A stretch of 64,000 nt of DNA. Source: Cupriavidus taiwanensis (lineage in GTDB: Bacteria > Pseudomonadota > Gammaproteobacteria > Burkholderiales > Burkholderiaceae). The stretch covers positions 1,751,301 through 1,815,300 of the forward strand of contig NZ_LT984804.1 in the NCBI RefSeq assembly GCF_900250115.1, in the 5' to 3' direction. A model generated the notes under the pieces. That model saw only the letters and a program-made list of their open reading frames with translations. It had not been told where the DNA came from and ran no database searches. Positions 2,868 to 47,837 of the stretch are shown one piece after another (the first letter of the stretch is position 1; every line of letters begins with the position of its first letter). Made by a program: the position numbers and the translations under genes.

Positions 2868-3899
2868 TCACCCCTTGCGCGGCGCCGCCGTGGATCCCCG
2901 CACGATGAGGTGTGGCTGCAGTTGCACGGTGACCGGGTCCGAGTCCGGCTTGCTGATCTTCCTGAGCAGGAGGCGCGCCGCCTCCTCGCCCATCTCGTGC
3001 ACGGCGATCCGGATGGTGGTCAGCGGCGGCGTCAGGGCATCGACGAAGGGCATGTCGTTGTGGCCGATGACCGAGATGTCGTCGGGGCAACGCAGGCCCT
3101 GCTCGCGCAGGTAGTCGTAGCAGCCCATCGCGACCAGGTCATTGGCCGCCGCAATCGCGGTCAGCGCGGGCAACACGGTCAGCAGTTGCTCGCAGGCGAC
3201 CCGTCCGGCATTGCGCGAATAGCTGGACGCCTCGACCACGTGCCAGTCCGCACGACGCAGGCGATGGCGCCTGACGGCCTGAATAAAGCCCTCGCGACGC
3301 AGGTAGCCGGTCGACAGCGATGCCGGCCCGGCGATATGCCCGATGCGGCGATGACCCAGTTCCACCAAGTGATCGACGGTCAGCTGCATGGCCCGCACGC
3401 TGTCGCTCACGACGGAGGACACGCTGCCCGATCCTTCGCCGCGGTTGACCATCACCACCGGGACGTGCCGTGCCAGGCAATACTCGAGCACCGGGTCGTC
3501 CCGTTCCGCGGTGGCCAGCACCAGCCCTTCGACCTGCCGCCCGAGCAGCTGATCGATCACGAAGCGCTGCCGGCCCTTGTCGCTTCCGGCATTGACCACG
3601 ATCGGCACATAGCCCTGCTGCGCGAGCACCACCTCGATCCCGGCCAGGATCGGCGGAAACACGGGGTTGGCAATATCGGGCAGCACCACGCCGATCAGCC
3701 CGGAGCGCTGGGTGCGCAGGCCGGCGGCAATGCGGTTGGGGGAAAAGCCGCGCGCCTCGGCAACGGCCAGCACCCGCGCCGCCACGTCCTCTGCCACGAG
3801 ATGCCGCGTCGCCGGGTTCATCACCCGCGACACGGTCGAGTAATGCACGTCGATTTCGGCAGCCAGGTCTTTGAGGGTGAGGCGCTTGCGCTCGGGCAT
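2868..3899 (-). CDS. LacI family transcriptional regulator of the catabolic unit
   Basis: A 343-residue LacI/GalR-type regulator. The N-terminal helix-turn-helix (LTLKDLAAEIDVHYSTVSRV) is followed by a hinge and a periplasmic-binding-protein-like effector domain with IGVVLPDIANPVF and the usual C-terminal PDDISVIGHNDMPF. The start at 3899 places the helix-turn-helix at residues 5-25 as in the family; an ATG at 3935 would add 12 residues, and neither has a clear ribosome site. It is the last gene of a same-strand series running from 10241. Two LacI-type palindromes in that unit (10253-10266 and 6201-6220) are its likely operators. The effector is probably the pathway substrate or an intermediate. 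Confidence 0.93.
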   Translation of the reverse strand: MPERKRLTLKDLAAEIDVHYSTVSRVMNPATRHLVAEDVAARVLAVAEARGFSPNRIAAGLRTQRSGLIGVVLPDIANPVFPPILAGIEVVLAQQGYVPIVVNAGSDKGRQRFVIDQLLGRQVEGLVLATAERDDPVLEYCLARHVPVVMVNRGEGSGSVSSVVSDSVRAMQLTVDHLVELGHRRIGHIAGPASLSTGYLRREGFIQAVRRHRLRRADWHVVEASSYSRNAGRVACEQLLTVLPALTAIAAANDLVAMGCYDYLREQGLRCPDDISVIGHNDMPFVDALTPPLTTIRIAVHEMGEEAARLLLRKISKPDSDPVTVQLQPHLIVRGSTAAPRKG

Positions 3900-3985
3900 G
3901 GAGGGTGAGGGCCGGGAAGGATGGGAGTACGCCATTTTAAGTCAGCCCGAAATCCATCTCCCCGCGCCACGCCCGCCCTCTGGCG

Positions 3986-4969
3986 CTACTGCCCCGCGAG
4001 CGCCCCGGACTGGCGGATGACCGGTGCAAGCTTGGCGATCTCTGCCTGGATATACGACGCGAATTCCTGCGGCGACGAGCGCTTCGGCTCTGCTCCCTGC
4101 GCCGCCAGGCGTTCGCGAACGTCGGGTGCGGCCAGCGCCTTGCCGATTTCCGCGTTGAGGGTATCGACGATCTCCCTCGGGGTGCCGGCCGGCGCCAGGA
4201 TGCCAAACCACGAGTCGAAGGCATAGCCCGGCAAGCCGGACTCGGCCACGGTCGGAATATCGGGCAGCGAACTGCTGCGCCTGGCCGTCGTGACCGCCAG
4301 CGCGCGCAGCTTGCCCTGCCGCACGAAGGGCATGGCCGACACCGTCGGGGCGAACATCATGTCGCCGCGGCCGGCCATGACGTCGGTCAGCGCCTCGCCC
4401 GTGCCCTTGTACGGGATATGGACGATGTCGAGGCCCGCCTGCATCCTGAACATCTCGCCGCTGAGATGGGTGGAGCTGCCGGAGCCGGCCGAATCGAAAT
4501 TCAGCTTGCCTGGCGCCGCCCTCGCGGCCGTCACCAGGTCGTGCACGGATTTGTACTTGCTGGCGGCGCTCACGACCAGCACGTTGGGCACCGTCGCCAC
4601 CAGCGACACCGGCGCGAAGTCCTTGACGGTGTCGTAAGCCAGCCTGGGATACAGCGTGGCGTTGATCGCATGGCCCACCGACACCAGGATCAGCGTGTAG
4701 CCATCCGGCGCCGCCTTGGCGACGCCGGACGCGCCGAGCGTGCCGCCGGCGCCCGGGCGGTTGTCGACGATCACCTGGTAGGTACCGCCTTCGCTCATCT
4801 TGGCGCCGATGATGCGCGCCAGGATGTCGGTGGCGCTGCCCGCCGAAAACGGCACCACCAGGCGGATCGGCTTGCCGGGATACGGCGCCTGGGCCACCGC
4901 GGCGGGCGCCACGGCAAGCATCAAGGACGAGCTCAGCGCCACCACGGCGCCGCGGATGGATCGAATCAT
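3986..4969 (-). CDS. Bug-family tripartite tricarboxylate transporter substrate-binding protein
   Basis: A 327-residue periplasmic binding protein of the Bug/TctC family. It has a signal peptide (residues 1-25, ending APAAVAQA), then the family opening YPGKPIRLVVPFSAG and the typical NFDSAGSGSSTHLSGEMF. Family members bind carboxylates or aromatic acids with direct hydrogen bonds. The start at 4969 is preceded by GAGGAGACAGACC. No membrane components (TctA/TctB) are encoded nearby, which is common: these proteins are greatly expanded in Burkholderiales. It lies 43 bases behind the porin gene, so both probably supply substrate to the enzymes upstream. Confidence 0.93.
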   Translation of the reverse strand: MIRSIRGAVVALSSSLMLAVAPAAVAQAPYPGKPIRLVVPFSAGSATDILARIIGAKMSEGGTYQVIVDNRPGAGGTLGASGVAKAAPDGYTLILVSVGHAINATLYPRLAYDTVKDFAPVSLVATVPNVLVVSAASKYKSVHDLVTAARAAPGKLNFDSAGSGSSTHLSGEMFRMQAGLDIVHIPYKGTGEALTDVMAGRGDMMFAPTVSAMPFVRQGKLRALAVTTARRSSSLPDIPTVAESGLPGYAFDSWFGILAPAGTPREIVDTLNAEIGKALAAPDVRERLAAQGAEPKRSSPQEFASYIQAEIAKLAPVIRQSGALAGQ

Positions 4970-5012
4970 GGTCTGTCTCCTCACTACCGGATCGGGTCGA
5001 AAGCGGCACGCC

Positions 5013-6122
5013 TCAGAAGAAATGGCGCATGCCGAGGGCGAAGGTCTGGGGGTCGGCGCCGGCGCTGACACCCAGTTCATTGATGGCAAAGTCGTAGATC
5101 GCATTGCGCTTGTTCTGGATGCGGCTGTAGTAGGCGTACAGCGCAGTGCGCTTGGACAGCGGATAGTCGTAGCCCACCGTCACCTGCGTGGCGCCCGTCT
5201 CCGCGCCGCTGCGGAAGAAGCCCACCGTCTCGGTGGCGTTGCCCGCGCCATTGCCGGCCAGCGCCACGCCCACGCGCACGCTGCCCGGGCCCAGCTTCTG
5301 CACCAGCGACGCGTAGTAGCCGTTACGCGTCAGATCGCCGGTGGCGGTGCGGTAGTGCAGCCGTTCATAGGCCAGCGCGACGGTCGTGCTGGGAAACTTG
5401 TAAGACACGCCCGCCTTGATTGCATCGTCATTGCGGCCCGCGGTCTGGTAGTGCTGGTGGAGCTCATACGCCAGCACCACGTTGAGCGGACCGTTGTCAT
5501 AGGCCGCGGAGAAGGAGTACAGCCCCGGATTGCGCGGCTCGCTGATCTTCTCCTCGTTGACACCCCAGGCCGCGGCACCGCTGAACCCCGCCAGCGAGGG
5601 CGTCTTGTAGACGATGATGTTCTTCTGGCGGCGGTCGAAGGCGCTGGTGTCCTGCACGTTGTCCGTGCTCGACGCCGACCCGTTGCCCATCAGCGCCATG
5701 TATCCGGCGGTGGTCGGGTAATACGGGTCATAGCCCGCGGTCGCCTCGGTATAAGGCGTCTGCCAGTGCCCCATGAACAGGGTGCCCGCCTTGCCCTGCA
5801 CGCCGATGCGCGAATTGCGGCCAGCGATCTGGCCCTGGCCGTTATCGAGCGACAGATTGCTCTCGATCTGCCAGATGGCCTTCAGGCTGCCGCCCAGTCC
5901 TTCTTCGCCTCGCATGCCGAAGACCGAGCGGTTGTTGGTCAGGCGGCCGGTGCCGCCGAGATCCGTGCCATCGGTGGCCGTGCTGGCGCGGGCATATTCC
6001 AGGGCCGTGTTAAGGCGCCCGTAGAGGGTCACGCTGGACTGGGCGCCGGCCTGCCCGGCCCAGCCGGCCGCGGCGCCCGCGGCCAGCAGCCAGGCCCTTG
6101 TGCGCATGGGGGCGGTTGTCAT
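5013..6122 (-). CDS. Gram-negative trimeric outer membrane porin
   Basis: A 369-residue porin with a signal peptide (cleavage after GQAGAQ), the Burkholderiales porin opening SSVTLYGRLNTALEY, alternating beta strands, and a C-terminal phenylalanine (GMRHFF) required for barrel assembly. It forms a general or substrate-selective channel in the outer membrane. Its start lies 111 bases behind the cupin gene, and that gap holds a 20-base LacI-type palindrome, so the porin, Bug and lacI genes probably have their own regulated promoter. A specific substrate cannot be read from the sequence. Confidence 0.93.
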   Translation of the reverse strand: MTTAPMRTRAWLLAAGAAAGWAGQAGAQSSVTLYGRLNTALEYARASTATDGTDLGGTGRLTNNRSVFGMRGEEGLGGSLKAIWQIESNLSLDNGQGQIAGRNSRIGVQGKAGTLFMGHWQTPYTEATAGYDPYYPTTAGYMALMGNGSASSTDNVQDTSAFDRRQKNIIVYKTPSLAGFSGAAAWGVNEEKISEPRNPGLYSFSAAYDNGPLNVVLAYELHQHYQTAGRNDDAIKAGVSYKFPSTTVALAYERLHYRTATGDLTRNGYYASLVQKLGPGSVRVGVALAGNGAGNATETVGFFRSGAETGATQVTVGYDYPLSKRTALYAYYSRIQNKRNAIYDFAINELGVSAGADPQTFALGMRHFF

Positions 6123-6200
6123 AGATGTCTCTTTTTCCTGTTTTGTGGTTGTGGTGGTGTGGCGGTTGTCGTCGCACTGGCTCCGGCAAGCGCTGCCAGG

Positions 6201-6220
6201 GGCTGCAATCGTTTGCAGCC
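6201..6220. promoter_or_regulatory. LacI-type operator upstream of the porin gene
   Basis: The sequence GGCTGCAATCGTTTGCAGCC is a 20-base palindrome with a single mismatched pair and a central CG, the hallmark of LacI/GalR operators. It lies about 80 bases upstream of the porin start. It shares the core TGCAAnCGTTTGCA with the site at 10253-10266. Confidence 0.75.
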
Positions 6221-6233
6221 TGGCGCTAAAAAA

Positions 6234-6575
6234 TCAGCCTGCCGGAAACGGCATCGCCAGCAGCAGCATTGCCGGACGATTGCCGGGATTCGACACCTGG
6301 CGCGACTCCCCGGGCGCAAGCCGGACCGAATCGAACTGACTCAGCAGCGCCGTTTGTTCCGGCGTGCGGATGCAGACCTCGCCCTCCAGCACGACGTAGT
6401 GCTTTTCCACCGCCGCGGCGTCGAGCGCGGTATGCCCTTGCGGCAGCAGCACCGAGACGCCGAGCCACAGGGACGCCGCGGGCCCCGCTTCATGGCCTTG
6501 CAGGCGCAGGCAATGCATGCCCTCATGGTTGGCCGGAAAATACGCCGGCGCCTGAGCGAACCGGGTGATGTTCAT
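6234..6575 (-). CDS. cupin domain protein
   Basis: A 113-residue single-domain cupin. The small beta-barrel motifs are visible: a first motif around GHTALDAAAVEKHYVVLEGEV and a second around PGESRQVSNPGNRPAMLLL. The metal ligands are only partly kept (one clear His in the first motif), so enzymatic activity is uncertain; a binding or isomerase role is possible. Its ATG overlaps the stop of the preceding oxidoreductase gene (ATGA, 6572-6575), implying translational coupling and a shared pathway. Confidence 0.8.
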   Translation of the reverse strand: MNITRFAQAPAYFPANHEGMHCLRLQGHEAGPAASLWLGVSVLLPQGHTALDAAAVEKHYVVLEGEVCIRTPEQTALLSQFDSVRLAPGESRQVSNPGNRPAMLLLAMPFPAG

Positions 6576-7549
6576 GGCTTGAGCACCACCCGCTCCGTCG
6601 CGCCCTGCAGCACGGCACGATAGGCATCCTTGGCCTGCGCCAGCGAATAGGTGTAGTCAGGCAGCACCGGGAACGGCCGCAGCTTGCCGCTGGCGAACAG
6701 CGGCGCAAGCTGGTCCAGGATGCGGGCGCAGGCATTGCTGTCGAGCGCCAGCGTGTCCACGCCCACATAGGTGTGCTGGCCGCGATAGAAGGCAAAGATG
6801 TCGAACGGCACCGGCTTCTCGATGGTCGAGATGAAGATCTGCGTGGCGCCGACCGCCATGCTGCGGTTGGCCTGCTCGAAGTACGGGCTGCCGACGGTGT
6901 TGTAGACGATGTCCGCGCCGTGCCCGCCGGTCTCCTCGCGCACGACCTCGGCAATCGGCTCGCGGCTGGCATCGATCATGCGGACCGCGCCGCTCGCATG
7001 GCCGCGGTAAGGCTGCTCGGTCCGCTCCACGGCAAAGACACGCGCGCCCAGCGCCGTGGCGATCTGGATGGTGGCCTGCCCGACCTTGCCATTGCCGCCG
7101 CACACCAGCACGGTGCTGCCGGCCTGCGGCATGCCCGCGCGGCGCAGTCCCTCATAGGCCGTGATGAACGGCACGCCCACCGCGCCCGCTTCGAGCAGCG
7201 ATACCGATGCCGGCTTGGCGCGCACCGAGGCCGCGTCGATGCGCAGAAACTTGCCGTGCGTGCCGTCGCGGCGAATCCCCAGTTCGCCGCCGCTGCCCCA
7301 CACCTGCAGCCCCAGCAGTTGCGACGGGCCATCGACCACCAGGCCGGCATAGTCGCGGCCGGGCGTGCGCGGCCAGACCGCATGCGGCATCAGTCCCAGC
7401 GTCGCTTTGACGTCGCTGGGGTTGACCCCGGCACTGGCGACTTCGATGATGCACTGGCCAGCCGCCGCGTGCGGACGCGGCATGCCTTGCAGTTCGAGCT
7501 GCAGGGTCTCGATATCGTTGGCTTTCTGGTTGACTCGAATAGCGTTCAT
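6572..7549 (-). CDS. medium-chain (MDR) quinone-oxidoreductase-like dehydrogenase
   Basis: A 325-residue MDR-superfamily NAD(P)H-dependent reductase. The N-terminal GroES-like domain (about 1-130) includes ASAGVNPSDVKATLG, and the Rossmann domain carries GNGKVGQATIQIATALGA. The structural and catalytic zinc cysteines of alcohol dehydrogenases are absent, placing it with the zinc-free quinone oxidoreductase/enoyl reductase group. In this context it could reduce an unsaturated ring-cleavage product (for example maleylacetate-type), although the classical maleylacetate reductase belongs to another family. It starts 39 bases after the BKACE gene and is coupled to the cupin. Confidence 0.88.
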   Translation of the reverse strand: MNAIRVNQKANDIETLQLELQGMPRPHAAAGQCIIEVASAGVNPSDVKATLGLMPHAVWPRTPGRDYAGLVVDGPSQLLGLQVWGSGGELGIRRDGTHGKFLRIDAASVRAKPASVSLLEAGAVGVPFITAYEGLRRAGMPQAGSTVLVCGGNGKVGQATIQIATALGARVFAVERTEQPYRGHASGAVRMIDASREPIAEVVREETGGHGADIVYNTVGSPYFEQANRSMAVGATQIFISTIEKPVPFDIFAFYRGQHTYVGVDTLALDSNACARILDQLAPLFASGKLRPFPVLPDYTYSLAQAKDAYRAVLQGATERVVLKP

Positions 7550-7588
7550 GATGGTTTCGGTTTGGTTGGAATCTCGTGCGGCGTTGCT

Positions 7589-8473
7589 TCAGGCCTCGCG
7601 CAGGCCCAGCGTGCGGCGCGCCTCAGCCGGCGAGGCCAGCTCGCCGCCGAGCGAGTGGACGATATCGCGCGCCCTGGCGACCAGCGCGGCGTTGTCGGGC
7701 GCGAGCACGCCCTTCTCCAGGTAGATGTTGTCTTCCAGTCCGACGCGCACATGGCCGCCGGCGAGCCACGCCTGCGCGACCATGGGAAACTCCGCGCGGC
7801 CGATGCCGAAGGCGGACCAGTGCGCGCCCGCGGGCAGCATGTTGCGGGCGTAGAAGATCGTTTCCGGCGTGGGCGCAAACCCATACTTGACGCCCAGCAC
7901 GAAGGTCCAGAGCCCGGGGCCGTCCAGCACCCCCGCGCGGATGAAATCGAGGGCCATGTTGAGGTCTCCCGAATCGAAGATCTCCAGCTCCGGCATCACG
8001 CCCGCGGCACGGATGATTTCTGCCATCTTGCGCACGTTGGCCGGCGTATTGATGACCACGTCGGCACCGGAATTCACGGTGTTCAGGTCGAGCGAGCATA
8101 CGTCCGGCCGCAGTGCGGCAATGTGTTCGACGCGCTTCGACGGGTGCAGCAGCGTCGTCCCGGGCGCGGCCACGCGCGGCTCGTGCTCGCTCGGCACGAA
8201 GCGCCCGCCCGGCCCGGTGGTGAGATTGATGATCAGCGAACGGTTGCGCTTGCGGATGCGGTCCATGACGTCGGCGTAGTAGTCGAGCGACATCGACGGG
8301 CGCCCGGTCTCCGGATCGCGCACATGGATATGCGCGGCGGCGGCGCCCGCTTCGGCGGCCTCCAGCGCGGCATCGGCGATCTGTGCCGGGGTCACGGGCA
8401 GGCCGGGATGCTGTTCAGGGGTGACGATGTTGCCGGTCACCGCGCAGGTGAGGATGGTCTTGCGTGCATGCAT
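7589..8473 (-). CDS. beta-keto acid cleavage enzyme (BKACE, DUF849)
   Basis: A 294-residue protein of the BKACE family (formerly DUF849; 3-keto-5-aminohexanoate cleavage enzyme). Family members condense a beta-keto acid with acetyl-CoA and cleave it to acetoacetate plus a new acyl-CoA, using a Zn ion in a TIM barrel. Seen here are the zinc motif HIHVRDPETGRPS near residue 48, the GPGG and SEHEPR segments, and the C-terminal GGHVRVGLEDNIYLEKG. The full length matches the family (about 300). Side-chain specificity cannot be read directly. Next to an intradiol dioxygenase, a 3-oxoadipate-like substrate is a reasonable inference. Confidence 0.93.
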   Translation of the reverse strand: MHARKTILTCAVTGNIVTPEQHPGLPVTPAQIADAALEAAEAGAAAAHIHVRDPETGRPSMSLDYYADVMDRIRKRNRSLIINLTTGPGGRFVPSEHEPRVAAPGTTLLHPSKRVEHIAALRPDVCSLDLNTVNSGADVVINTPANVRKMAEIIRAAGVMPELEIFDSGDLNMALDFIRAGVLDGPGLWTFVLGVKYGFAPTPETIFYARNMLPAGAHWSAFGIGRAEFPMVAQAWLAGGHVRVGLEDNIYLEKGVLAPDNAALVARARDIVHSLGGELASPAEARRTLGLREA

Positions 8474-8511
8474 GGCGTTGTCAGCGGTTGCGTGATTGGC
8501 GTGGCTGGGCG

Positions 8512-9261
8512 CTAGCCCAGCTGGCGGCCGCCATCGACGACGATGGTGGTGCCGGTGGCGAAGCGAAGCGAAGTGGCACAGGCAGCGATGGCATCGGCCA
8601 CGTCTTGCGCCTGGCCAATGCGGCGCAGCGGCGTGGTCCGGGCGGCGCGCTCGTTGAAGCTGTCGTCGCGCCCCGGCACGAAGCCGGTGTCGACCACGCC
8701 CGGGGAGACATTGAGCACGCGGATCGCCGGGGCCAGCGCGCGTCCCAGCGACATCGCCATGACGTCCAGGCCGGCCTTGGCCGCGCAGTAGGCCACGTTG
8801 CTGCCCTGCCCGGTGCGGCCAGCGATGGAGCCGACATTGACCACCAGCCCGTCACCGTGGGCACGCAGCAGCGGCGCGAAGGCGCGGATCGCGGCGAACT
8901 GGCCGCGCCAGTTGATGGCGAACAGCGCGTCGATCAGGCCGTCGTCCAGCGCGTCGAGGTCAGCATGGGGGATGGGCCGGGTAAAGCCCGCGCTGTTCAC
9001 CAGGATATCCACGCGCCCGTAGTGGTGGCTGGCCGTGTCAGCCAGCTGGCGCAGCGATGCGCTGTCACCGATCTCGGCCACCGCGGCCAGGTGGTTGCCG
9101 GCCGGCAGCGCGGCCGCGGCGCTGGCCGTCTTGTCGGCATCGCGGCCCGCCAGCACGATGCTGGCGCCCAGGTGCGCCAGCGTTGCACCGGCCGCCAGGC
9201 CAATGCCACCGCTGCCGCCGAGGATCACGGCTACCTTGCCGGAAAGAGAAGATGCGCTCAT
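8512..9261 (-). CDS. short-chain dehydrogenase/reductase (SDR)
   Basis: A 249-residue classical SDR. It shows the NAD(P) motif GGSGGIG near residue 15, the NSAG motif, the active-site Ser in NVGSIAGRTG and the YCAAK Tyr/Lys pair, then PGVVDTGF and a C-terminal VVDGGRQLG. It catalyses NAD(P)-dependent oxidation or reduction of an alcohol/ketone. It is placed between the dioxygenase and BKACE genes (41- and 38-base gaps), which points to a step in the same pathway, either preparing the ring substrate or reducing a keto intermediate. Substrate unknown. Confidence 0.93.
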   Translation of the reverse strand: MSASSLSGKVAVILGGSGGIGLAAGATLAHLGASIVLAGRDADKTASAAAALPAGNHLAAVAEIGDSASLRQLADTASHHYGRVDILVNSAGFTRPIPHADLDALDDGLIDALFAINWRGQFAAIRAFAPLLRAHGDGLVVNVGSIAGRTGQGSNVAYCAAKAGLDVMAMSLGRALAPAIRVLNVSPGVVDTGFVPGRDDSFNERAARTTPLRRIGQAQDVADAIAACATSLRFATGTTIVVDGGRQLG

Positions 9262-9302
9262 GGTTTCGATATGGGTAGTCAGGGATGATGCGAAAGCAGC
9301 GC

Positions 9303-10241
9303 TCAGTCGATGGGCGGCCTGGGAAAGGTCTGCTCGCCCGGCTCGAGCGTGAAATCAAAGGCGAGCGTAAAGAACGGCGCCGGCACGTTGCCCCACGGGC
9401 TGCTTCCGTGGTCGTGCCGCTGCAGCTGGCCGACCAGCTGGCGGTGCACGCCAAAGGTGACATCGGATTCCAGCTGGGCCGGTTCATCGGCGAATACCTG
9501 CGTCACCAGCGTGCGATAGCCCGGCGCCGCGACGATGAAATGGATATGCGCCGGCCGGTATGGCTGACGGCGCTGCGCGGCGAGCAAGGCGCCCACCGGG
9601 CCGTCGGTCGGCACCGGATAGCCTGCCGGGCGCACGGAGCGGAAATGGTAGTGGCCGCCTTCATCGGCATGGAAGCAGCCGCGCAGGTTGCGGTCGGGCT
9701 GGTTCGGATCCTGGTTGTCGTACAGCCCCACCGGCGAAGCCTGCCAGACCTCGACCAGCGCCCCCGGCAGCGGCGTGCCATCGGTGGCGCGCACCGTGCC
9801 GCTGACGAACATGGGCAGGCCGGGCGCGTTGTCCTGGACCACGCAGTCGCCGCACGCATAGCGCGGCGCATTGGCGCGGTAGAACGGGCCCAGCAGCGCC
9901 CCGGGCGTGCGTCCGTGCCGTGTGCCGTTGTTCATCACGGTCACCAGGGTCGACAATCCGAGCACGTCCGCTGCCAGCACGACTTCGTTGTGGGTGGCGT
10001 GCGTGGCCTGACCCAGGCGGGCCACGAACTCGAGCGCGAACTCGAATTCCGCATCGGTCAGGCGCGCCTCCCGCAGAAAGGCATGCAGGTGCCTGACCAG
10101 CGCACCCATGACAAGACGCAGGCGCGGATCGGCCGTGTCCGCCATCGCGGACTCGACGATGCGGGTGACCGACCACTCGTCGTCCACCAGTGACAGCGGG
10201 CGGTCCGGGGATCGCTGTTCGGGTTCCAGGTATGTATCCAT
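9303..10241 (-). CDS. intradiol ring-cleavage dioxygenase, hydroxyquinol/catechol 1,2-dioxygenase type
   Basis: A 312-residue non-haem Fe(III) dioxygenase. It has the N-terminal helical dimerisation domain of catechol/hydroxyquinol 1,2-dioxygenases (about 1-110), then the catalytic beta sandwich with LLGPFY and VEVWQASPVGLYDNQ. The four iron ligands are visible as Tyr174, Tyr208, His232 and His234, with family spacing. It opens an ortho-diol ring between the hydroxyls. Length and the 'VEVWQA' type fit hydroxyquinol 1,2-dioxygenase best, but chlorocatechol-like specificity is not excluded. The start at 10241 follows GGAGGGCAG directly, and a LacI-type operator sits 12 bases upstream, so this is the first gene of the unit. 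Confidence 0.93.
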   Translation of the reverse strand: MDTYLEPEQRSPDRPLSLVDDEWSVTRIVESAMADTADPRLRLVMGALVRHLHAFLREARLTDAEFEFALEFVARLGQATHATHNEVVLAADVLGLSTLVTVMNNGTRHGRTPGALLGPFYRANAPRYACGDCVVQDNAPGLPMFVSGTVRATDGTPLPGALVEVWQASPVGLYDNQDPNQPDRNLRGCFHADEGGHYHFRSVRPAGYPVPTDGPVGALLAAQRRQPYRPAHIHFIVAAPGYRTLVTQVFADEPAQLESDVTFGVHRQLVGQLQRHDHGSSPWGNVPAPFFTLAFDFTLEPGEQTFPRPPID

Positions 10242-10252
10242 CTGCCCTCCTT

Positions 10253-10266
10253 TGCAAACGTTTGCA
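10253..10266. promoter_or_regulatory. LacI-type operator at the head of the catabolic unit
   Basis: TGCAAACGTTTGCA is a perfect 14-base palindrome with central CG, 12 bases upstream of the dioxygenase start codon. Its position near the presumed transcription start fits repression by steric block. It shares its core with the site at 6201-6220. Confidence 0.78.
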
Positions 10267-10456: not shown

Positions 10457-11380
10457 TCAAAACGCAGCGGAAACCTGCTGTTGGGCCCGCCGTTCCAGGT
10501 ACGCGGCGGCAAAGTCCGCGAATACACGGCACGCCGGGTTATGTGTTGCCTCCCGCCAGATCAGGTGCAATTCGGCGCGCACGTCGTCGCGCCAGATCGG
10601 GCGGAACAACACCTGCGGAAAGTGAAGGTGGCGCGCCGACGCTGGCACCAGCGCCACGCCGAGGCCCGCGCGGACCAGGGCGATCACGCTGTGGGTCTGG
10701 CTCATCTGCTGAACCACGCGCGGCGGCCGCGCCGTACCGGCCAGTACCGAACCGATCAGGTCATGAAAATACTTGCCCTCGGTCGCGGAGTACTGGATGA
10801 ACGGCAGGCCTGCCAGGTCCTTGCTGCCGATCTGCTTGCGCCGCGCCAGCGCGTGTCCCGCCGGCATTGCCAGCTGCAGCGGCTCGCTGACTGCCAGGCG
10901 CCATTGCAGTTCCGGCTCCATGTCAGCGATCGGCCGCATAAAGCCGAGGTCGATGGTGCCCGCCTGCAGCGCACTGACCTGTGCGACCGTGACCATTTCA
11001 TGCAGGGTCGCCTCGATCTCCGGCAGCGCTTCGCCGGCCGTTGCGATGAGGTTCGGCACGAGATCGTAGCCCGCTACCGCGGTAAAGCCGATACGCACCT
11101 TGCCGCTCACGCCCTGGTCGATCCGGCGCGCCGTGTCGACTGCGTTGCCGGCCAGCGCGAGCAGGCGCCGGGCGTCGTCGAGCAGCGCGGCGCCGGCGGC
11201 GGTAAGCCGCACCGCGCGGCTGTTGCGGTCGAACAGCCGCACGCCGAGGGTCTCCTCCAGCAGCCGGATCTGCCGGCTCAGCGGCGATTGGGTCATGAAC
11301 AGCCTGGCGGCTGCACGGCCGAAATGCAGCTCTTCGCCTACGGCGATGAAGCAGCGCAACTGGTTAAGGTCGGGAATCAT
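10457..11380 (-). CDS. LysR family regulator divergent from a hydroxyacid dehydrogenase
   Basis: A 307-residue LysR-type regulator. The N-terminal winged helix (MIPDLNQLRCFIAVGEELHF through LSRQIRLLEETLG) is followed by a type 2 periplasmic-binding-like effector domain (about 90-300). The ATG at 11380 was used; a TTG four codons upstream is less likely. The gene is divergent from the 2-hydroxyacid dehydrogenase gene at 11483, and a long inverted repeat lies between them, the usual LysR arrangement. It probably activates the dehydrogenase-Bug-SnoaL series and represses itself. Confidence 0.93.
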   Translation of the reverse strand: MIPDLNQLRCFIAVGEELHFGRAAARLFMTQSPLSRQIRLLEETLGVRLFDRNSRAVRLTAAGAALLDDARRLLALAGNAVDTARRIDQGVSGKVRIGFTAVAGYDLVPNLIATAGEALPEIEATLHEMVTVAQVSALQAGTIDLGFMRPIADMEPELQWRLAVSEPLQLAMPAGHALARRKQIGSKDLAGLPFIQYSATEGKYFHDLIGSVLAGTARPPRVVQQMSQTHSVIALVRAGLGVALVPASARHLHFPQVLFRPIWRDDVRAELHLIWREATHNPACRVFADFAAAYLERRAQQQVSAAF

Positions 11381-11400
11381 GGATCGTGCCAATTCTTGGA

Positions 11401-42304: not shown

Positions 42305-43645
42305 CTAGCGCTGTCCCGCACGCATCCCCAGCTGGACCAGCGCCTCGCTGGGCGGGGCCACGTCCAGCGCGGCCAGCAGCAGCCCCATGCCGGCCAGGAT
42401 GCGGTACTGGCTGGCCAGTTCGGTGTACTGGCCGGTCACGTAAGCGGTGCGCGCGCTGAAGTATTCATTCTCGGCATTGAGCAGGTCCAGCAGACTGCGC
42501 TGGCCGATGCGGAACTGGCGGCCGTAGCTGACACGCGTGGCATCGCTCGCCTGCACATACTGCTGCAGGCTTCCCAGCCGCTCCTGAGCGGTGCGATAGG
42601 CGTTGTAGGCCAGCGAAACGCTCTCCTGCACCTGCCGGCGCAGCCGCTCCAGGTTCTGCTCGGCTTCCTGGATCTGGAAGCCGGCCTCGTTGATGCGCGC
42701 CTTGTCGGCGTTGCCGCGGAACAGGTTGTAGCGCACGCGCAGCATCACCCTGCGCTCGTCGGTCGTGCCCAGCACGCGATCGCGGTCGCGCCCGGCGCCG
42801 AGTTCCAGGTCCAGTTTCGGCCACAGGGCCGAGCGTGCCAGCGAGCGCGCGGCCTCGGCTTCGGCAATGTCGGCCTGGCCCGCGCCCAGTGCGGGATGGC
42901 TGGCACTGGCCACCTGCTGCGCTTCCTGCTCGCTCGCGGGTAGCACCCCGGTGAGCGAGCCGGGACGGGACAAGCGCTGCGGCGCCGCCCCGACCACCCG
43001 CACGAACGCCGCCACGGCATCCTGCAGCGCACCTTCCTCGGCGCGCAAACTGGCCTGCGCCAGCGCCAGCCGGCTCTCGGCCTGGAACAGGTCGGCGCGG
43101 CGCAGTACGCCGTTGTCGACGCCGAGCCGGATCTGGTCATGAATATGCTGGTGTGCCTGGAGGTTGGCCACGCCGATCGCCACCGTTTCCTGGCGGCGCA
43201 GCACCTCCACATACACCCCCACGGTGCGCAGCGCGATGTCCTCGGCAGTGGCGCCGACCCGATAGGCCGCGCCGTCGATCCTTGCGCCCTGGCGCTCGAC
43301 GTCGCTGCTGACTGCGAAGCCGTCGAACAGCATCTGCGTGATGGTGACGTCGGCGGCATGGCGCGCATATGAGGAATCCGACACACCCATCGCGCGCGAA
43401 CTCTGGCTGTCCAGGCGCACCTGGCCACCGGCGCCGCTGACATCGACGCGCGGCAGGTAACCGGCGCGCGCCTGCTTCAGCCCCTCGTCGGCCGCCAGGC
43501 GGCGGCTGCCCGCCGCCAGCACTTCGGGATTGCTGCGCACGGCATGCTCCACCGCCTGCGGCAACGCCTGTGCTGCCGCAGCCTGCGGAAACAGCATCGC
43601 TGCCCATAGCAGTGCGGGTGCCAGCCAGCACCATGTCATCTTCAT
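42305..43645 (-). CDS. TolC family outer membrane channel of the type I secretion system
   Basis: A 446-residue TolC-type protein with a signal peptide (about 1-25, ending AAAQA). It contains the two repeated OEP domains, each with long helices: LPQAVEHAVRSNPEVLAAGSR at the start and SLAYNAYRTAQERLGSLQQYV in the second half. It forms the outer membrane exit channel and is the last gene of a minus-strand series with the ABC, HlyD and RTX genes. The gap to the RTX gene is 182 bases and holds a GC hairpin, so expression of tolC may be stepped down from the adhesin. Confidence 0.93.
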   Translation of the reverse strand: MKMTWCWLAPALLWAAMLFPQAAAAQALPQAVEHAVRSNPEVLAAGSRRLAADEGLKQARAGYLPRVDVSGAGGQVRLDSQSSRAMGVSDSSYARHAADVTITQMLFDGFAVSSDVERQGARIDGAAYRVGATAEDIALRTVGVYVEVLRRQETVAIGVANLQAHQHIHDQIRLGVDNGVLRRADLFQAESRLALAQASLRAEEGALQDAVAAFVRVVGAAPQRLSRPGSLTGVLPASEQEAQQVASASHPALGAGQADIAEAEAARSLARSALWPKLDLELGAGRDRDRVLGTTDERRVMLRVRYNLFRGNADKARINEAGFQIQEAEQNLERLRRQVQESVSLAYNAYRTAQERLGSLQQYVQASDATRVSYGRQFRIGQRSLLDLLNAENEYFSARTAYVTGQYTELASQYRILAGMGLLLAALDVAPPSEALVQLGMRAGQR

Positions 43646-43665
43646 GCTTCCCCCTGCCCGGGTTC

Positions 43666-43699
43666 ACCGCGTCCGCGCGCTGCGCGCGGCGGACGCGGT
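43666..43699. other. GC-rich hairpin between the RTX and tolC genes
   Basis: Eleven-base arms (43666-43676 with 43689-43699) form a strong hairpin in the 182-base gap. There is no T-run on either strand, so it is more likely an RNA-stability or attenuation element than a terminator. Confidence 0.45.
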
Positions 43700-43827
43700 T
43701 GCCCAGCCTGCTTCTTATGGTTATATGCCCTGCCGGCAGCGATGCCGCCGTCCTGCATTGCCGCCTGGCCGCGGCCTCCTCCCCTGCCCTGTCTTTTGCG
43801 CGGCTCCGCCGGTTCTCCGGGACCCCG

Positions 43828-46800
43828 TCAGACCATGTGGATATTGCCGTTGCTCAACAGGGTATTCAGGTCAAGCCCCACCATGCCCTGCAGCACGGCG
43901 ACATCCTGGAACCCGGTGGCGGTGCCGGTACCGTCGCGGTCCAGGCTGACCACGGTATTGCCATCGACTTCCGCCAGCCGCACGAACTGCGCGACGTTGT
44001 CGCCGGTGACGCTGGCGCCCGACAGCAGGTCGGACAGGTCCAGCACATCGCCGCCGCTGGCCGCGGGCGCCAGGTTGAAGTCAGTGATCGTGTCGACCGA
44101 GGCGGAATCGGCGCGCATGAAGCGGAAGGTGTCGCTGCCATCACCGCCGGCCAGTGTGTCCGAGCCGGCGCCGCCGCTGAGCAGGTCATTGCCGGCAGCG
44201 CCTGCCAGCAGGTCATTGCCGTCGCCGCCACGCAGCACGTCGTTGCCGGCGGAACCCGCTATCGTGTCGTTGAACGCCGAACCGACCACGCCTTCCATCC
44301 TGGTGTAGCTGTCGGTGCCCAGATTGACGGCGCCGAGGTTGACCGCAGTCACACCGCTGCCCTGCACCAGCGTGAAGTCGATCGCGCCGGCCGCGTCGGA
44401 GAAATCCAGCAGGTCGATGCCGGCGCCGCCATCGATGTTGTCATTGCCGGCGCCGCCGCGCAGGATGTCGTTGGCACCGCTGCCGGTGAGGGAGTCATTG
44501 AAGCGCGAACCGATCACCCCTTCCATGTTGCTGTAGGTATCGCTGCCGAGGCCCACGCCGGACAGGTTGACCAGTGTGTTGCTGCCCTGCGTCAGCGTAA
44601 AGCTCAACCCGCCGTTGGCATCCGAAAGATCCAGCATGTCGATGCCGGCGCCGCCGTCGAGCGTATCGTCGCCGCCGGCCCCGCGCAGGACGTCATCGCC
44701 GGCGCCGCCGCGCAGCGTGTCGCTCGCGGCCCCGCCGATCAACACATCGCCGGTGGCAGCGCCCGTCAGCGTGTCGCTGTTGCTGCCGCCATCGAGATAG
44801 GAGGCCTGGTAGCTCTGCCCCGCCAGCGACACCGTGGCCGCGCCATTGGTAGACGAGACATTGACTGTCACGGTAGCCGTGCTGGTGCCGCCTGCGCCAT
44901 CGGCAACGGTATAGCTGAAGCTGCCCGTGGCCGCGTTGCCGGAGTCGAACATGATGTAGCTGTTATTGCTTCCCGGCGCGAATCTCAGGTTGCTGACGGC
45001 TCCGCTAGCCCCGCCCAGACCGGTGATGGAAAGCGCCAGGCCGTCGACGTCGACGTCATTGCCGAGCAAGGCACTGACCGGTATCAGGATGCCGCTGGTG
45101 TTGTTCGAGACATGGACCACATCCGCGGTGGCGATCGGAGCGTCATTGACCGGACTGAGGGTGATCGCCACCGAATCGGTGTCGGTGGCTGCGCCGTCGC
45201 TGGTCTGCATCTGCAGCAAGGCCCCGCCGGCATAATCCCTGTCGCCGGTAAATTGCAGGCCATCGAGCGCGGCATTGATGTCCGCGTCGCTGCCGGTGAA
45301 GGTCATGGTGCCGTCCGCGCTGCCGTCACCCGCAAGGAACTGCAGTCCCGTCGTGCCGTTCAGCGTGATGGTGCCGGCGCTTGCCGTCAGGGTCACCGTG
45401 TGGCTGGTGCCGTCCACGTCGGAGACGCTGAGCGCATTGCCGGAGGCAGTGCCGAATACCAGCGGCGTGTCTTCGTTGACGGACTGGGCCACCGGAACAC
45501 TGTTGACGACGGCGTCGTTGGTGCCCGCGATATTGACCTTGATTTCCTGGCTTGTGCTGAGATCCGCCGAATGCACGGTCAGCGAATCGCTGACCAGCTG
45601 CCCGGCCGTCAGCGCGTCAGCCTTGTTGTTATCGAGCGTGTAGGTCCACGCGCCGGTGTCGCTGTCGAAGGTGAACGTGCCGTATTGGCCGACCAGGCTT
45701 TCCGGCGCCACCGCGGCAAAGCGAGCCTGGCCGGCATCGACATCACTGACCGTCAGCGTACCGCTGGCCGCGGCGTCGCCGGCCGTGCCGTTGGCCACGC
45801 CGCCGGCTTCGGTCACCGCCGTGTCTTCGCTGGTCGAGGCGGTGATGGTCGCCGCGTCGTTGCTGCCGGTGATGTTGACGGTGATGGTCTGCTGCGCAGT
45901 CTGGTCGGCCGACGTCACCGTCAAGGAATCGCTGACCAGCTGACCCGCCGTCAGCGTGTCCGCCTTGCTGTTATCCAACGTGTAGGTCCATGCTCCGGTC
46001 GCGCTGTCGAAGGTGAACGTGCCGTACTGGCCGACCAGGCTTTCCGTCGCCACCGCGGCAAAGCGAGCCTGGCCGGCGTCGACATCGCTGACCGTCAGCG
46101 TGCCGCCGGCAGTGTTGTCTCCTGCAACAGCGTTCGCCACACCGCCGGCTTCGGTCACCGCCGTGTCCTCGCTCGTCGACGCGGTAATGGTCGCCGCATC
46201 GTTGCTGCCCGTGATATTGACCGTGATGGTCTGCTGCGCGGTCAGGTCGCTCGATGACACCATCAAGGCGTCGGTGACCTGTTGCCCGGCGGTCAGTGCG
46301 TCGGCCTTGCCGTTATCCAGCGTGTAGGTCCAGGCTCCGGTCGTGCTGTCGAAGGTGAAGGTGCCGTACTGGCCGACCAGATTCTCCGGCGCCACCGCGG
46401 CAAAGTGCGCTTCGCCGGCGTCGACATCACTGACGGTCAGCGTGCCGCCGGCCGACGTGTCGCCCGCCGTCGCGTTCGCCACACCGCCCGCCTCGGTCAC
46501 CAACGTGTCTTCGCTCGTCGACGCGGAAATCGTCGCCACATCGTTGGCCCCGTTGATCCGGATGCTCAGCGTCGATGCGGCCGATGCCTGGCCGTCTGTC
46601 ACGCTATAGCCGAACGAGTCATCGACATGCTCGCCGAGGCGCAGCGACTGGATCTGCGGATTGCCGTTGTCCAGGGTATAGCTGTAGCTGCCGTCGGCGT
46701 GGATCTGCAGTGTGCCGTACTGGCCGACATAGGTGCCGGGACTGGCCACCGCCAGCACATTGCCGGCATCGACATCGCTGTCATTGGACAGTACGTTGCC

Positions 46801-47748
46801 GCTAATCGGATTGGGTTGGTTGTCTTCGCCGATGGCGTTGGCATCGGCCGCGGCGATAGGGGCGTGGTTGTCGTAGCCGGCGAAATCGGACTTGGCCAGG
46901 TCATGCAGGCCGTCAAGCCGGATCACCATTTCCGCCGTGGCGGGATTGCCGTCGACATCCACGTAGACATAGGTGTTGCCGCCGGACTGCTGGTGCCAGG
47001 CGCCATGGGCCGTCGGCGTCAGGCCGCCCCACTGGAAACCGGTGTCGCCCAGCACGGGGCGCAGGTCCAGCCGGTCGGTGCCGCGCTGGAAGTCGGTGAT
47101 GACATCCATCCCCGCCGCGGTGGAATCGGACACGGCGTGGTAGACAAAGGTGTCGCGGCCGGCGCCGCCGCCGAGCATGTCGCCGCCGCCCCCGCCGGCG
47201 ATCGTGTCGTTGCCGCCTTCGCCGAAGATGGTGTCCCTGCCGTTGCCGCCGGCAATGATGTCATCGCCACCGACGAACGCGCCGTCGCCGTTGTCGCCGT
47301 AGATCAGGTCGTCGCCATTGCCACCCTGGATGCGGTCGTTGCCTGGCTGGGCCGACCCATGGCCGGGCCCGAGCAGGTAGTCGGCATAGCTGTCGTAGCC
47401 GTCGCCGTAGAGCGTATCGCCGCCGTTGTCGCCGGAGTAGAGCGTCGACGCGCCGTCGGCGCTGCCGATCACGTCGTCGCCGCTGCCGCCATAGACCGCG
47501 TCGGTGCCGTTGCCGCCGGACAAGATGTCGTTGCCGCGCCCGCCGAACAGGCGGTCTTTGCCATTGGCGCCGAGCAGCGTGTCGTCGCCGGCGCCCCCCT
47601 CGACGATATCGTCGCCATTGCCGGCATCGACATAGTCGCTGCCATCGCCGGCGCTGACATAGTCGCTGCCGTTGCCGCTGAGGATGGTGTCGCTGCTTGC
47701 GGTGCCGGTGAGGGTGTCGCTGCCGTTGGTGCCAGTCAGGGTTGCCAT
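43828..47748 (-). CDS. large RTX/VCBS repeat protein, type I secretion substrate
   Basis: A 1306-residue repeat protein. In order: RTX calcium-binding nonapeptides from the N-terminus (about 1-200; GGxGxDxxx repeats such as GGRGNDILS); a serralysin-type linker with DVITDFQRGTDRLDL; a cadherin/Ig-like domain; three near-identical VCBS repeats of 114 residues (about 405-745); two more Ig-like domains; then RTX blocks near the C-terminus, ending with a short tail GNIHMV that may hold the secretion signal. It should fold on calcium outside the cell and act in adhesion or biofilm. No LapG-type double-alanine retention module is seen, so it may be released. The ATG at 47748 follows GGAGAGAGAAACC. 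The exporter genes lie directly upstream. Confidence 0.93.
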   Translation of the reverse strand: MATLTGTNGSDTLTGTASSDTILSGNGSDYVSAGDGSDYVDAGNGDDIVEGGAGDDTLLGANGKDRLFGGRGNDILSGGNGTDAVYGGSGDDVIGSADGASTLYSGDNGGDTLYGDGYDSYADYLLGPGHGSAQPGNDRIQGGNGDDLIYGDNGDGAFVGGDDIIAGGNGRDTIFGEGGNDTIAGGGGGDMLGGGAGRDTFVYHAVSDSTAAGMDVITDFQRGTDRLDLRPVLGDTGFQWGGLTPTAHGAWHQQSGGNTYVYVDVDGNPATAEMVIRLDGLHDLAKSDFAGYDNHAPIAAADANAIGEDNQPNPISGNVLSNDSDVDAGNVLAVASPGTYVGQYGTLQIHADGSYSYTLDNGNPQIQSLRLGEHVDDSFGYSVTDGQASAASTLSIRINGANDVATISASTSEDTLVTEAGGVANATAGDTSAGGTLTVSDVDAGEAHFAAVAPENLVGQYGTFTFDSTTGAWTYTLDNGKADALTAGQQVTDALMVSSSDLTAQQTITVNITGSNDAATITASTSEDTAVTEAGGVANAVAGDNTAGGTLTVSDVDAGQARFAAVATESLVGQYGTFTFDSATGAWTYTLDNSKADTLTAGQLVSDSLTVTSADQTAQQTITVNITGSNDAATITASTSEDTAVTEAGGVANGTAGDAAASGTLTVSDVDAGQARFAAVAPESLVGQYGTFTFDSDTGAWTYTLDNNKADALTAGQLVSDSLTVHSADLSTSQEIKVNIAGTNDAVVNSVPVAQSVNEDTPLVFGTASGNALSVSDVDGTSHTVTLTASAGTITLNGTTGLQFLAGDGSADGTMTFTGSDADINAALDGLQFTGDRDYAGGALLQMQTSDGAATDTDSVAITLSPVNDAPIATADVVHVSNNTSGILIPVSALLGNDVDVDGLALSITGLGGASGAVSNLRFAPGSNNSYIMFDSGNAATGSFSYTVADGAGGTSTATVTVNVSSTNGAATVSLAGQSYQASYLDGGSNSDTLTGAATGDVLIGGAASDTLRGGAGDDVLRGAGGDDTLDGGAGIDMLDLSDANGGLSFTLTQGSNTLVNLSGVGLGSDTYSNMEGVIGSRFNDSLTGSGANDILRGGAGNDNIDGGAGIDLLDFSDAAGAIDFTLVQGSGVTAVNLGAVNLGTDSYTRMEGVVGSAFNDTIAGSAGNDVLRGGDGNDLLAGAAGNDLLSGGAGSDTLAGGDGSDTFRFMRADSASVDTITDFNLAPAASGGDVLDLSDLLSGASVTGDNVAQFVRLAEVDGNTVVSLDRDGTGTATGFQDVAVLQGMVGLDLNTLLSNGNIHMV
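45520..46545. repeat. three tandem 342-base VCBS repeats inside the RTX gene
   Basis: Three consecutive units of 342 bases (114 codons) are very similar in DNA, for example in the ASTSEDT-AVTEAGGVAN and DSATGAWTYTLDN segments. They are a likely site of recombination that changes repeat number. Confidence 0.8.
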
Positions 47749-47837
47749 GATGGTTTCTCTCTCCGTCCTGAATGCAGGCCTCGCGGCCATGCCTTGCTTG
47801 TTATCGTTGCGAAAGACTCGCGCCCCAACCGCGGGTC

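Follow-up and report, generated by a model that had tools for sequence, protein, structure and literature searches.

A conserved gene block in Cupriavidus taiwanensis that may couple hydroxyquinol-type ring cleavage to a BKACE-family enzyme

Introduction

How might a ring-cleavage operon reach succinyl-coenzyme A (CoA) when it carries no CoA-transferase, no thiolase and no classical maleylacetate reductase? The question is raised by eight genes in Cupriavidus taiwanensis (assembly GCF_900250115.1), which lie in a stretch of 64,000 nucleotides (contig NZ_LT984804.1, positions 1,751,301 to 1,815,300), hereafter the window. An original prediction, made from the letters alone, described them as a one-strand unit under LacI control in which a beta-keto acid cleavage enzyme (BKACE) may take the place of PcaIJ and PcaF. 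Open reading frames and Pfam families bear out the eight genes in place and family: an intradiol dioxygenase, a short-chain dehydrogenase/reductase (SDR), a BKACE, a medium-chain dehydrogenase/reductase (MDR), a small cupin, a porin, a Bug solute-binding protein and a LacI regulator, all on the reverse strand (Table 1). The genes of the unit include none for PcaIJ, PcaF or maleylacetate reductase.

The interpretation that we tentatively prefer, with rather less than even confidence, is a self-contained catabolic unit, repressed by the LacI protein, that would take hydroxyquinol through maleylacetate and 3-oxoadipate to succinyl-CoA and acetoacetate. The substrate would be a small polyhydroxylated ring, likeliest hydroxyquinol itself or a compound converted to it by the SDR and the cupin, with uptake aided by the porin and the Bug protein. 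The dioxygenase would cut hydroxyquinol between adjacent hydroxyl groups to 3-hydroxymuconate, the tautomer of maleylacetate, the MDR would reduce the carbon-carbon double bond beside the ketone to give 3-oxoadipate, and the BKACE would convert 3-oxoadipate and acetyl-CoA to succinyl-CoA and acetoacetate, with Arg91 holding the distal carboxylate.

Conservation of the block

The unit is no local oddity. Its five enzyme genes, those for dioxygenase, SDR, BKACE, MDR and cupin, occur together in Burkholderiaceae, Pigmentiphaga, Skermanella, Bosea and rhizobia, forming a conserved ring-cleavage block that spans Alpha- and Betaproteobacteria. The Burkholderiaceae sample comprised 299 genomes, the unit's own included, with at most the best eight BKACE and best seven dioxygenase candidates per genome scored. 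At 66% identity or more there were 45 BKACE matches, 42 of which have the dioxygenase (49% or more) no farther than 8 kb away; those of G034:C1, G284 and G253 have none, also in the 17-18 kb around them (L175, L107 and L108). Every dioxygenase match of at least 54% identity (41 of 41) lies within 8 kb of a BKACE gene. The own genome holds nine BKACE-family matches, one of them partial, and just one of these places is near any of its four intradiol dioxygenase places, so that the pairing of the two enzymes stands above chance. The original prediction had proposed comparing BKACE gene neighbourhoods in related genomes as a check, and this comparison finds the enzyme in constant company. That the genes are chance neighbours, or serve separate pathways on one stretch of DNA, is very improbable, and chance clustering was rejected on these two co-occurrence counts, on the recurrence in Alphaproteobacteria and on the unique pair of palindromes described below.

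The five enzyme genes are complete in all 22 loci found through the dioxygenase, the cupin gene being on the opposite strand in Pigmentiphaga (L030), and in 14 of 16 loci chosen as having both dioxygenase and BKACE (L091-L106). Among the latter, L093 has no MDR and L103 no cupin, the cupin of L101 is incomplete, and the block is split in L103, L104, L105 and L106. On plasmids, where 561 records matched and 22 of the 40 listed were read, 15 loci have a BKACE of at least 57.5% identity (from Skermanella, Bosea, Roseomonas, Agrobacterium, Neorhizobium, Sinorhizobium, Ensifer, Pararhizobium, Rhizobium and Shinella); ten carry all five genes, an Ensifer locus (L149), read over 14.9 kb, carries all but the SDR, and L142, L143 and L148 gave no dioxygenase match. 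The block was not found in the seven plasmid loci whose BKACE falls below 57.5%. A BKACE search of the class (E up to 1e-95) returned the own genome as sole match among 369 genomes, few of them of its order, and a dioxygenase search of the order (E up to 1e-82) returned four other genomes of 300, at 44-50% identity; the 3.8 to 16 kb read around those four matches (L171-L174) hold no block BKACE, SDR, MDR or cupin. Pairwise distances of the five proteins across 45 loci correlate at 0.86-0.95, values obtained without a species-tree control and not counted as proof.

Transporters adjoining the block differ by locus, being of Bug, tripartite ATP-independent periplasmic (TRAP), branched-chain-type ATP-binding cassette (ABC) or Rbs-type ABC kind. 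Recurrent accessory genes encode gamma-carbonic-anhydrase-like proteins, alpha/beta hydrolases, glutathione S-transferase (GST), RidA, amidohydrolases and aldehyde dehydrogenases, some with operator-like sites near them.

The dioxygenase and its probable link to hydroxyquinol

The likeliest start of the dioxygenase gene is the ATG at 10241, preceded by GGAGGG. With this start, the iron ligands named in the original prediction, Tyr174, Tyr208, His232 and His234 of the 312-residue reading, are confirmed, and they are kept in all 50 block enzymes. Both domains, Dioxygenase_N and Dioxygenase_C, exceed their cut-offs. The nearest solved structures are hydroxyquinol 1,2-dioxygenases (1tmx, E 1.9e-62; 8r2w, E 4.8e-58), whereas the best match to a catechol 1,2-dioxygenase structure has an E value of 5.9e-35, and the protein stays under the NCBIfam catechol and chlorocatechol equivalog cut-offs (152 against 359, 150 against 392 and 140 against 404 bits). 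On these grounds a catechol or protocatechuate type is not favoured. Aligned with 1TMX, Leu89 and Asp92 match its Leu80 and Asp83, residues that we take to set substrate selectivity; the pair occurs in all 50 block enzymes, and its equivalents also in the four second-type enzymes compared (L140, L159, L168 and L177). In a sister clade, 47-49% identical, Gly replaces this Asp in all three enzymes compared (L161, L163 and L164); the neighbours in the sister-clade loci L162-L164 presumably resemble dehydroquinase, shikimate dehydrogenase, hydratase or aldolase. Homology and pocket residues together support the hydroxyquinol type. The own genome has three more dioxygenase places over the Pfam cut-off, one distant and two adjacent, and the adjacent genes may, by position, be a PcaGH-like pair. 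Since all three match the queries at 28-34%, the enzyme of the unit looks like the sole hydroxyquinol-like one in the genome.

Gene context in other genomes also suggests a tie between the block and hydroxyquinol metabolism. On an Agrobacterium plasmid (L140), an annotated maleylacetate reductase and another intradiol dioxygenase are encoded at least about 3.8 kb from a related BKACE gene, on the opposite strand and separated from it by a LysR (not LacI) gene. Sinorhizobium terangae (L159) has, after a complete block, genes for a second dioxygenase and a homologue of maleylacetate reductase. Between block locus L092 and L168, a locus from the genus of the window, the importer subunits are 50, 63 and 54% identical; the L168 cluster has another dioxygenase of hydroxyquinol type, and a few kb past its importer lies a homologue of maleylacetate reductase. 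A hydroxyquinol route is favoured because the dioxygenase is nearest to hydroxyquinol enzymes, its pocket residues are kept and these loci are linked to maleylacetate.

As a separate observation, three loci from the genus of the window (L167, L168 and L177) share a second dioxygenase cluster with an Rbs-type importer; we take its other members to include a YciI-like protein and, in L168 and L177, a glucose-methanol-choline (GMC)-type oxidoreductase.

The proposed reductase step

The original prediction left the maleylacetate step to the MDR or the SDR, noting that no maleylacetate reductase of the classical family is present. This absence holds for the unit and fails for the genome, which has a homologue on the same contig at a distance of about 0.52 Mb, 51% identical to the annotated enzyme of L140 and standing alone beside a Bug gene. 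The proposal that the MDR is required for want of any maleylacetate reductase was therefore rejected. That the MDR takes this enzyme's place is suggested by L140, which has a maleylacetate reductase and in which no match to the block MDR was found; the SDR is the less likely candidate for the step.

The nearest NCBIfam family of the MDR is quinone_pig3, at 115 bits against a cut-off of 297, and this nearness to a quinone reductase subfamily bears on a rather unlikely alternative, that the MDR is a quinone reductase keeping hydroxyquinol reduced while the BKACE cleaves maleylacetate, in its own right a beta-keto acid, directly to acetoacetate and fumaryl- or maleyl-CoA, or that the distant reductase homologue works in trans. 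The existence of a separate homologue in the genome and a GST gene ahead of the dioxygenase in rhizobial loci are consistent with it; the gene content of L140 would speak for substitution by the MDR instead, a point blunted by the other MDR-type genes annotated there. Near the block of L093, a gene on the other strand (L093:9771-10361) presumably encodes a flavodoxin-like NAD(P)H reductase.

The BKACE and its relation to BsfD

The BKACE is a clear PF05853 member (333.7 bits against a cut-off of 24.8), and the predicted zinc motif is present as His48, His50 and Glu247, which are found in 56 of 56 related BKACEs; the identity of the ligands follows the available text on BsfD (PMC12871164). BsfD (9zsc), from the flavophos cluster, is the closest solved relative and aligns without gaps over residues 2-292; its gene, matched to 9ZSC on four stretches, encodes a protein 56% identical to the BKACE of the unit. 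Phe166, Arg91, Arg226, Tyr251 and Lys254 are common to both. Phe166 and Arg91 recur in all 56 related BKACEs, with or without a dioxygenase, and in 13 of 15 further sequences (of which L021 is also among the 56), the exceptions being own-genome paralogues at 25 and 30% identity. An AlphaFold model of the BKACE, with a mean predicted local distance difference test (pLDDT) score of 72 and residues 88-91 and 98-107 under 50, was not used.

According to the parts of the BsfD paper available, all BKACEs are said to have Tyr where BsfD has Phe166, an inserted loop places Arg91 near the phosphonate, and the enzyme acetylates 3-oxo-4-phosphonobutanoate, the product then decarboxylating with no cleavage (PMC12871164). 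BsfD, the closest characterised relative, thus takes a beta-keto acid bearing an acid group at its distal end, which counts in favour of the hydroxyquinol route, and by analogy a distal-acid contact through Arg91 suits 3-oxoadipate, maleylacetate or another diacid. A tree of 49 selected sequences groups all block BKACEs in one clade (support 97/94) that also takes in the BsfD gene (L187), which shares a fork (99/94) with L110 and eight rhizobial block enzymes; elsewhere the tree has several long or open branches. From this nesting, BsfD was probably recruited from the catabolic block lineage.

Retro-Claisen cleavage by the BKACE of the unit is plausible and not assured, because the enzyme has Phe166 and Arg91 and because BsfD, whose chemistry stops before cleavage, nests within its clade. 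Either the Phe-type enzymes can cleave and some other cause made BsfD lose cleavage, or the whole subfamily may work differently. A BsfD-like alternative would have the BKACE move acetyl from acetyl-CoA to C2 of the beta-keto acid, and decarboxylation would yield a beta-diketone (4,6-dioxoheptanoate from 3-oxoadipate), which passes to other enzymes uncleaved. The gapless alignment, the five common residues and the nested BsfD gene would suit such a reaction, yet it brings little gain to a catabolic operon, no conserved diketone hydrolase was seen in the block, and Phe166 runs through the whole compared subfamily, of which BsfD is one derived member; we consider it unlikely, slightly more so than the quinone-reductase alternative. 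Less probable again is a specific form of the idea, in which the ring-opened beta-keto acid would become a beta-diketone by C-acetylation, MDR, SDR and cupin would process the diketone, and flavophos chemistry would have been recruited from aromatic catabolism. To our knowledge, C-acetylation of a beta-keto acid to a beta-diketone is known only from flavophos biosynthesis.

Several further observations concern BKACE genes. Public records name the BKACE a 3-keto-5-aminohexanoate cleavage protein or an NADPH:quinone reductase, and neither name fits the evidence. Weak matches to the dioxygenase lie near more distant Phe-type BKACEs: about 1.7 kb after the BKACE in L154 and L156 (32-35%), which belong to the seven plasmid loci of lower identity, and about 4 kb from that of L110 (34%). 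A Tyr-type BKACE gene, 30% identical, is located about 4.7 kb past the end of the window (G000:C2:1820033-1820842), with none of the genome's intradiol dioxygenase places nearby.

The SDR and the cupin

An SDR stands beside or near a BKACE in loci where no dioxygenase was found (L107, 60%; L143, 51%; L175, 66%), and it was not found in L149. Because it keeps this company without a dioxygenase, the SDR more likely works with the BKACE than as a maleylacetate reductase, and, by analogy with the deoxyribonate and phloroglucinol pathways, it more likely oxidises a 3-hydroxy acid. Such a role belongs to the strongest of the competing interpretations, which is nonetheless unlikely, clearly more so than the hydroxyquinol route: the ring would be a relative of hydroxyquinol (a tetrahydroxybenzene, a substituted hydroxyquinol or a compound derived from an alicyclic polyol), and the SDR would turn a beta-hydroxy acid into the beta-keto acid for the BKACE, a step that is proposed in deoxyribonate catabolism and has been shown in that of phloroglucinol. 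The SDR neighbourhoods agree with this, as does the order of SDR and BKACE-family enzyme in what is available on deoxyribonate (PMC6365646) and phloroglucinol (PMC10470551) catabolism. Some loci have additional genes for an amidohydrolase, an aldehyde dehydrogenase and RidA, in part near operator-like sites, and in general polyol-like effectors would be in keeping with LacI regulators and Rbs-type importers. Against it stand the compared hydroxyquinol-pocket residues, which the dioxygenase keeps, and the Ensifer block that lacks the SDR.

The cupin has a predicted single-domain cupin fold (mean pLDDT 90.8). Its model matches generic small cupins, the polyketide cyclase RemF and the lyase DddK, at 12-24% identity among the 50 matches shown, and these matches point to no function. 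In two small genomes of about 2 Mb (L106 and L107), BKACE and SDR keep different company, which we take to be a tartrate-dehydratase-like protein of the enolase superfamily and a cyclase-family hydrolase; in L107, dioxygenase and MDR appear to be replaced and a fumarylacetoacetate-hydrolase-like gene is presumably also present.

Points that weigh against the hydroxyquinol route

The preference for a route from hydroxyquinol to succinyl-CoA and acetoacetate must be set against several findings. The catalytic Tyr of BKACEs (Tyr145 in CcaKce, Tyr173 in PdKce) is replaced by Phe166 throughout the related enzymes, and the NCBIfam model for 3-oxoadipate:acetyl-CoA acetyltransferase, NF053568, gives 178 and 173 bits where 350 are required; no match in the own genome reaches this cut-off. 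Arg91 of BsfD, as the available text has it, meets the phosphonate only after acetyl transfer (PMC12871164). The unit need not replace either maleylacetate reductase or PcaI/ScoA, as homologues exist elsewhere in the genome, those of PcaI/ScoA type being three genes over cut-off. The other MDR-type genes annotated in L140 mean that the replacement there is not clean, the reductase beside the full block of L159 would be redundant, and L093 has BKACE and dioxygenase but no MDR. Finally, the SDR and the cupin have no assigned step in the proposed route. Of the predicted BKACE-ended pathway avoiding PcaIJ and PcaF, the absence of these genes from the unit stands, while the Phe in place of Tyr, the missed family cut-off and the closeness to BsfD tell against the enzymatic part.

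Probable regulation by LacI

The palindrome pattern TGCAAWCGWTTGCA occurs at exactly two places in the 7,009,602-base genome, both in the unit and heading its two gene groups, and the reversed control pattern occurs nowhere. Related loci were scanned for the form GCAANCGNTTGC in 49 dioxygenase-bearing stretches, many of them close kin, with the start zone defined as at most 400 bases upstream of, or at most 40 inside, the called dioxygenase start. A site lies near the start in 40 of the 49, at a median distance of 14 bases, and 55 of 103 sites fall in start zones that make up 21,560 of 905,456 bases. The nine loci missing a start-zone site are L093, L095, L106, L144, L145, L149, L150, L151 and L159; in L095 a site is found 106 bases inside a called start that is over-long, and in L144, L145 and L149 sites are located 5.6 to 5.9 kb upstream, by transporter genes preceding the dioxygenase. 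A LacI homologue (at least 45% identity over 150 residues, within the stretch read) is present in 38 of the 47 loci where the five enzyme genes are complete and accompanies the block in all 21 loci L009-L029. It was not found in the stretches read of L105, L106, L147, L150, L151 and L159, while L144 and L145 have an annotated LacI gene cut by the edge, and L031, for which none was counted, covers just a short part of the unit in the window itself.

The unit thus has both a LacI regulator gene and a putative palindromic operator ahead of each gene group, and control by LacI, as originally predicted, is likely given the regulator gene and two genome-unique palindromes. The LacI protein probably controls the unit and little else in the genome. 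With exactly two palindromes in the genome, any hydroxylase is probably outside the regulon, and the ring compound would arrive already hydroxylated.

Layout and neighbouring genes

Read from the dioxygenase to the LacI gene, the intergenic gaps are 41, 38, 39, -4, 111, 43 and 50 bases, the negative value being a 4-base overlap of the cupin gene with the MDR stop. The span first given for the unit ran to 10266, which is the last base of palindrome TGCAAACGTTTGCA and not the end of a gene. A LysR gene at 10457-11392 was considered as a member and excluded, because it adjoins the dioxygenase in just two of 22 loci (L009 and L012 of L009-L030). Elsewhere in the window (42305-51417), a glycine- and aspartate-rich repeat protein of 1320 residues is encoded among genes that presumably resemble a type I secretion set.

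Table 1. Features of the unit (genes 2868-10241) in window coordinates
Feature	Position	Strand	Family or note
Intradiol dioxygenase, hydroxyquinol 1,2-dioxygenase type, 312 aa	9303..10241	-	PF04444+PF00775
SDR, 249 aa	8512..9261	-	PF13561
BKACE (DUF849), Arg91/Phe166 BsfD-like kind, 294 aa	7589..8473	-	PF05853, 333.7 bits
MDR reductase, quinone oxidoreductase/enone reductase kind, 325 aa	6572..7549	-	PF00107+PF08240
Small cupin, 113 aa	6234..6575	-	PF07883 (Cupin_2), 23.9 bits, under cut-off 27.2
Gram-negative porin	5013..6122	-	PF13609
Bug/TctC solute-binding protein	3986..4969	-	PF03401
LacI-family regulator of the unit, probable	2868..3935	-	PF00356+PF13377
LacI-type palindrome TGCAAACGTTTGCA	10253..10266		11 bases ahead of dioxygenase start codon
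Second LacI-type palindrome, TGCAATCGTTTGCA on +	6204..6217		ahead of porin

Significance

The block is common to dozens of soil and root-nodule genomes, where it goes under misleading gene names. If the proposed route is true, it would give the hydroxyquinol branch an ending without CoA-transferase, thiolase or classical maleylacetate reductase. The chemistry of the BKACE would tell whether a DUF849 enzyme with Phe for the catalytic Tyr can cleave, and the block enzyme would show the origin of the flavophos enzyme.

Comparison with known systems

Among the matches listed in a literature search, there was no description of the unit, no assay of any of its steps and no BKACE paper mentioning maleylacetate, and no paper was found that pairs 3-keto-5-aminohexanoate cleavage with hydroxyquinol. 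The original prediction, too, knew of no described pathway with this exact layout, with the reservation that replacement of PcaIJ and PcaF by a BKACE has already been proposed for Methylobacterium. What is new is the link between a BKACE and a hydroxyquinol-type dioxygenase; the replacement itself is not.

In Methylobacterium, the available parts of two papers describe pca/van clusters with a DUF849/BKACE gene (kce) and without pcaIJ or pcaF, for which conversion of 3-oxoadipate to succinyl-CoA and acetoacetate is proposed (PMC8963497, PMC12379598). The likeness lies in a ring-cleavage operon that has a BKACE in place of PcaIJ and PcaF. Those clusters, however, serve the protocatechuate branch, and several of their BKACEs are placed in group G4, whereas the unit has a hydroxyquinol-type dioxygenase, an MDR, an SDR, a cupin, probable LacI control and a BsfD-like BKACE. 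BsfD (PMC12871164, PDB 9ZSC) shares with the unit's enzyme the zinc ligands, Phe166, Arg91 and the CoA contacts Arg226, Tyr251 and Lys254, and differs, by what is available of its description, in being biosynthetic and in performing C-acetylation and decarboxylation rather than cleavage.

A dehydrogenase followed by a BKACE-family enzyme is found in phloroglucinol degradation by Clostridium scatologenes (PMC10470551) and in deoxyribonate catabolism (PMC6365646), the dehydrogenase of the latter being an SDR; in the portions of these papers available, no ring-cleaving dioxygenase is seen, and the BKACEs and substrates are other ones. The classical hydroxyquinol branch, which consists of hydroxyquinol 1,2-dioxygenase and an iron-dependent maleylacetate reductase, resembles the unit in its related dioxygenase and, in one pair of loci (L092 and L168), in the sugar-like type of importer. 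From this branch the unit differs in having no maleylacetate reductase and in the addition of BKACE, MDR, SDR and cupin.

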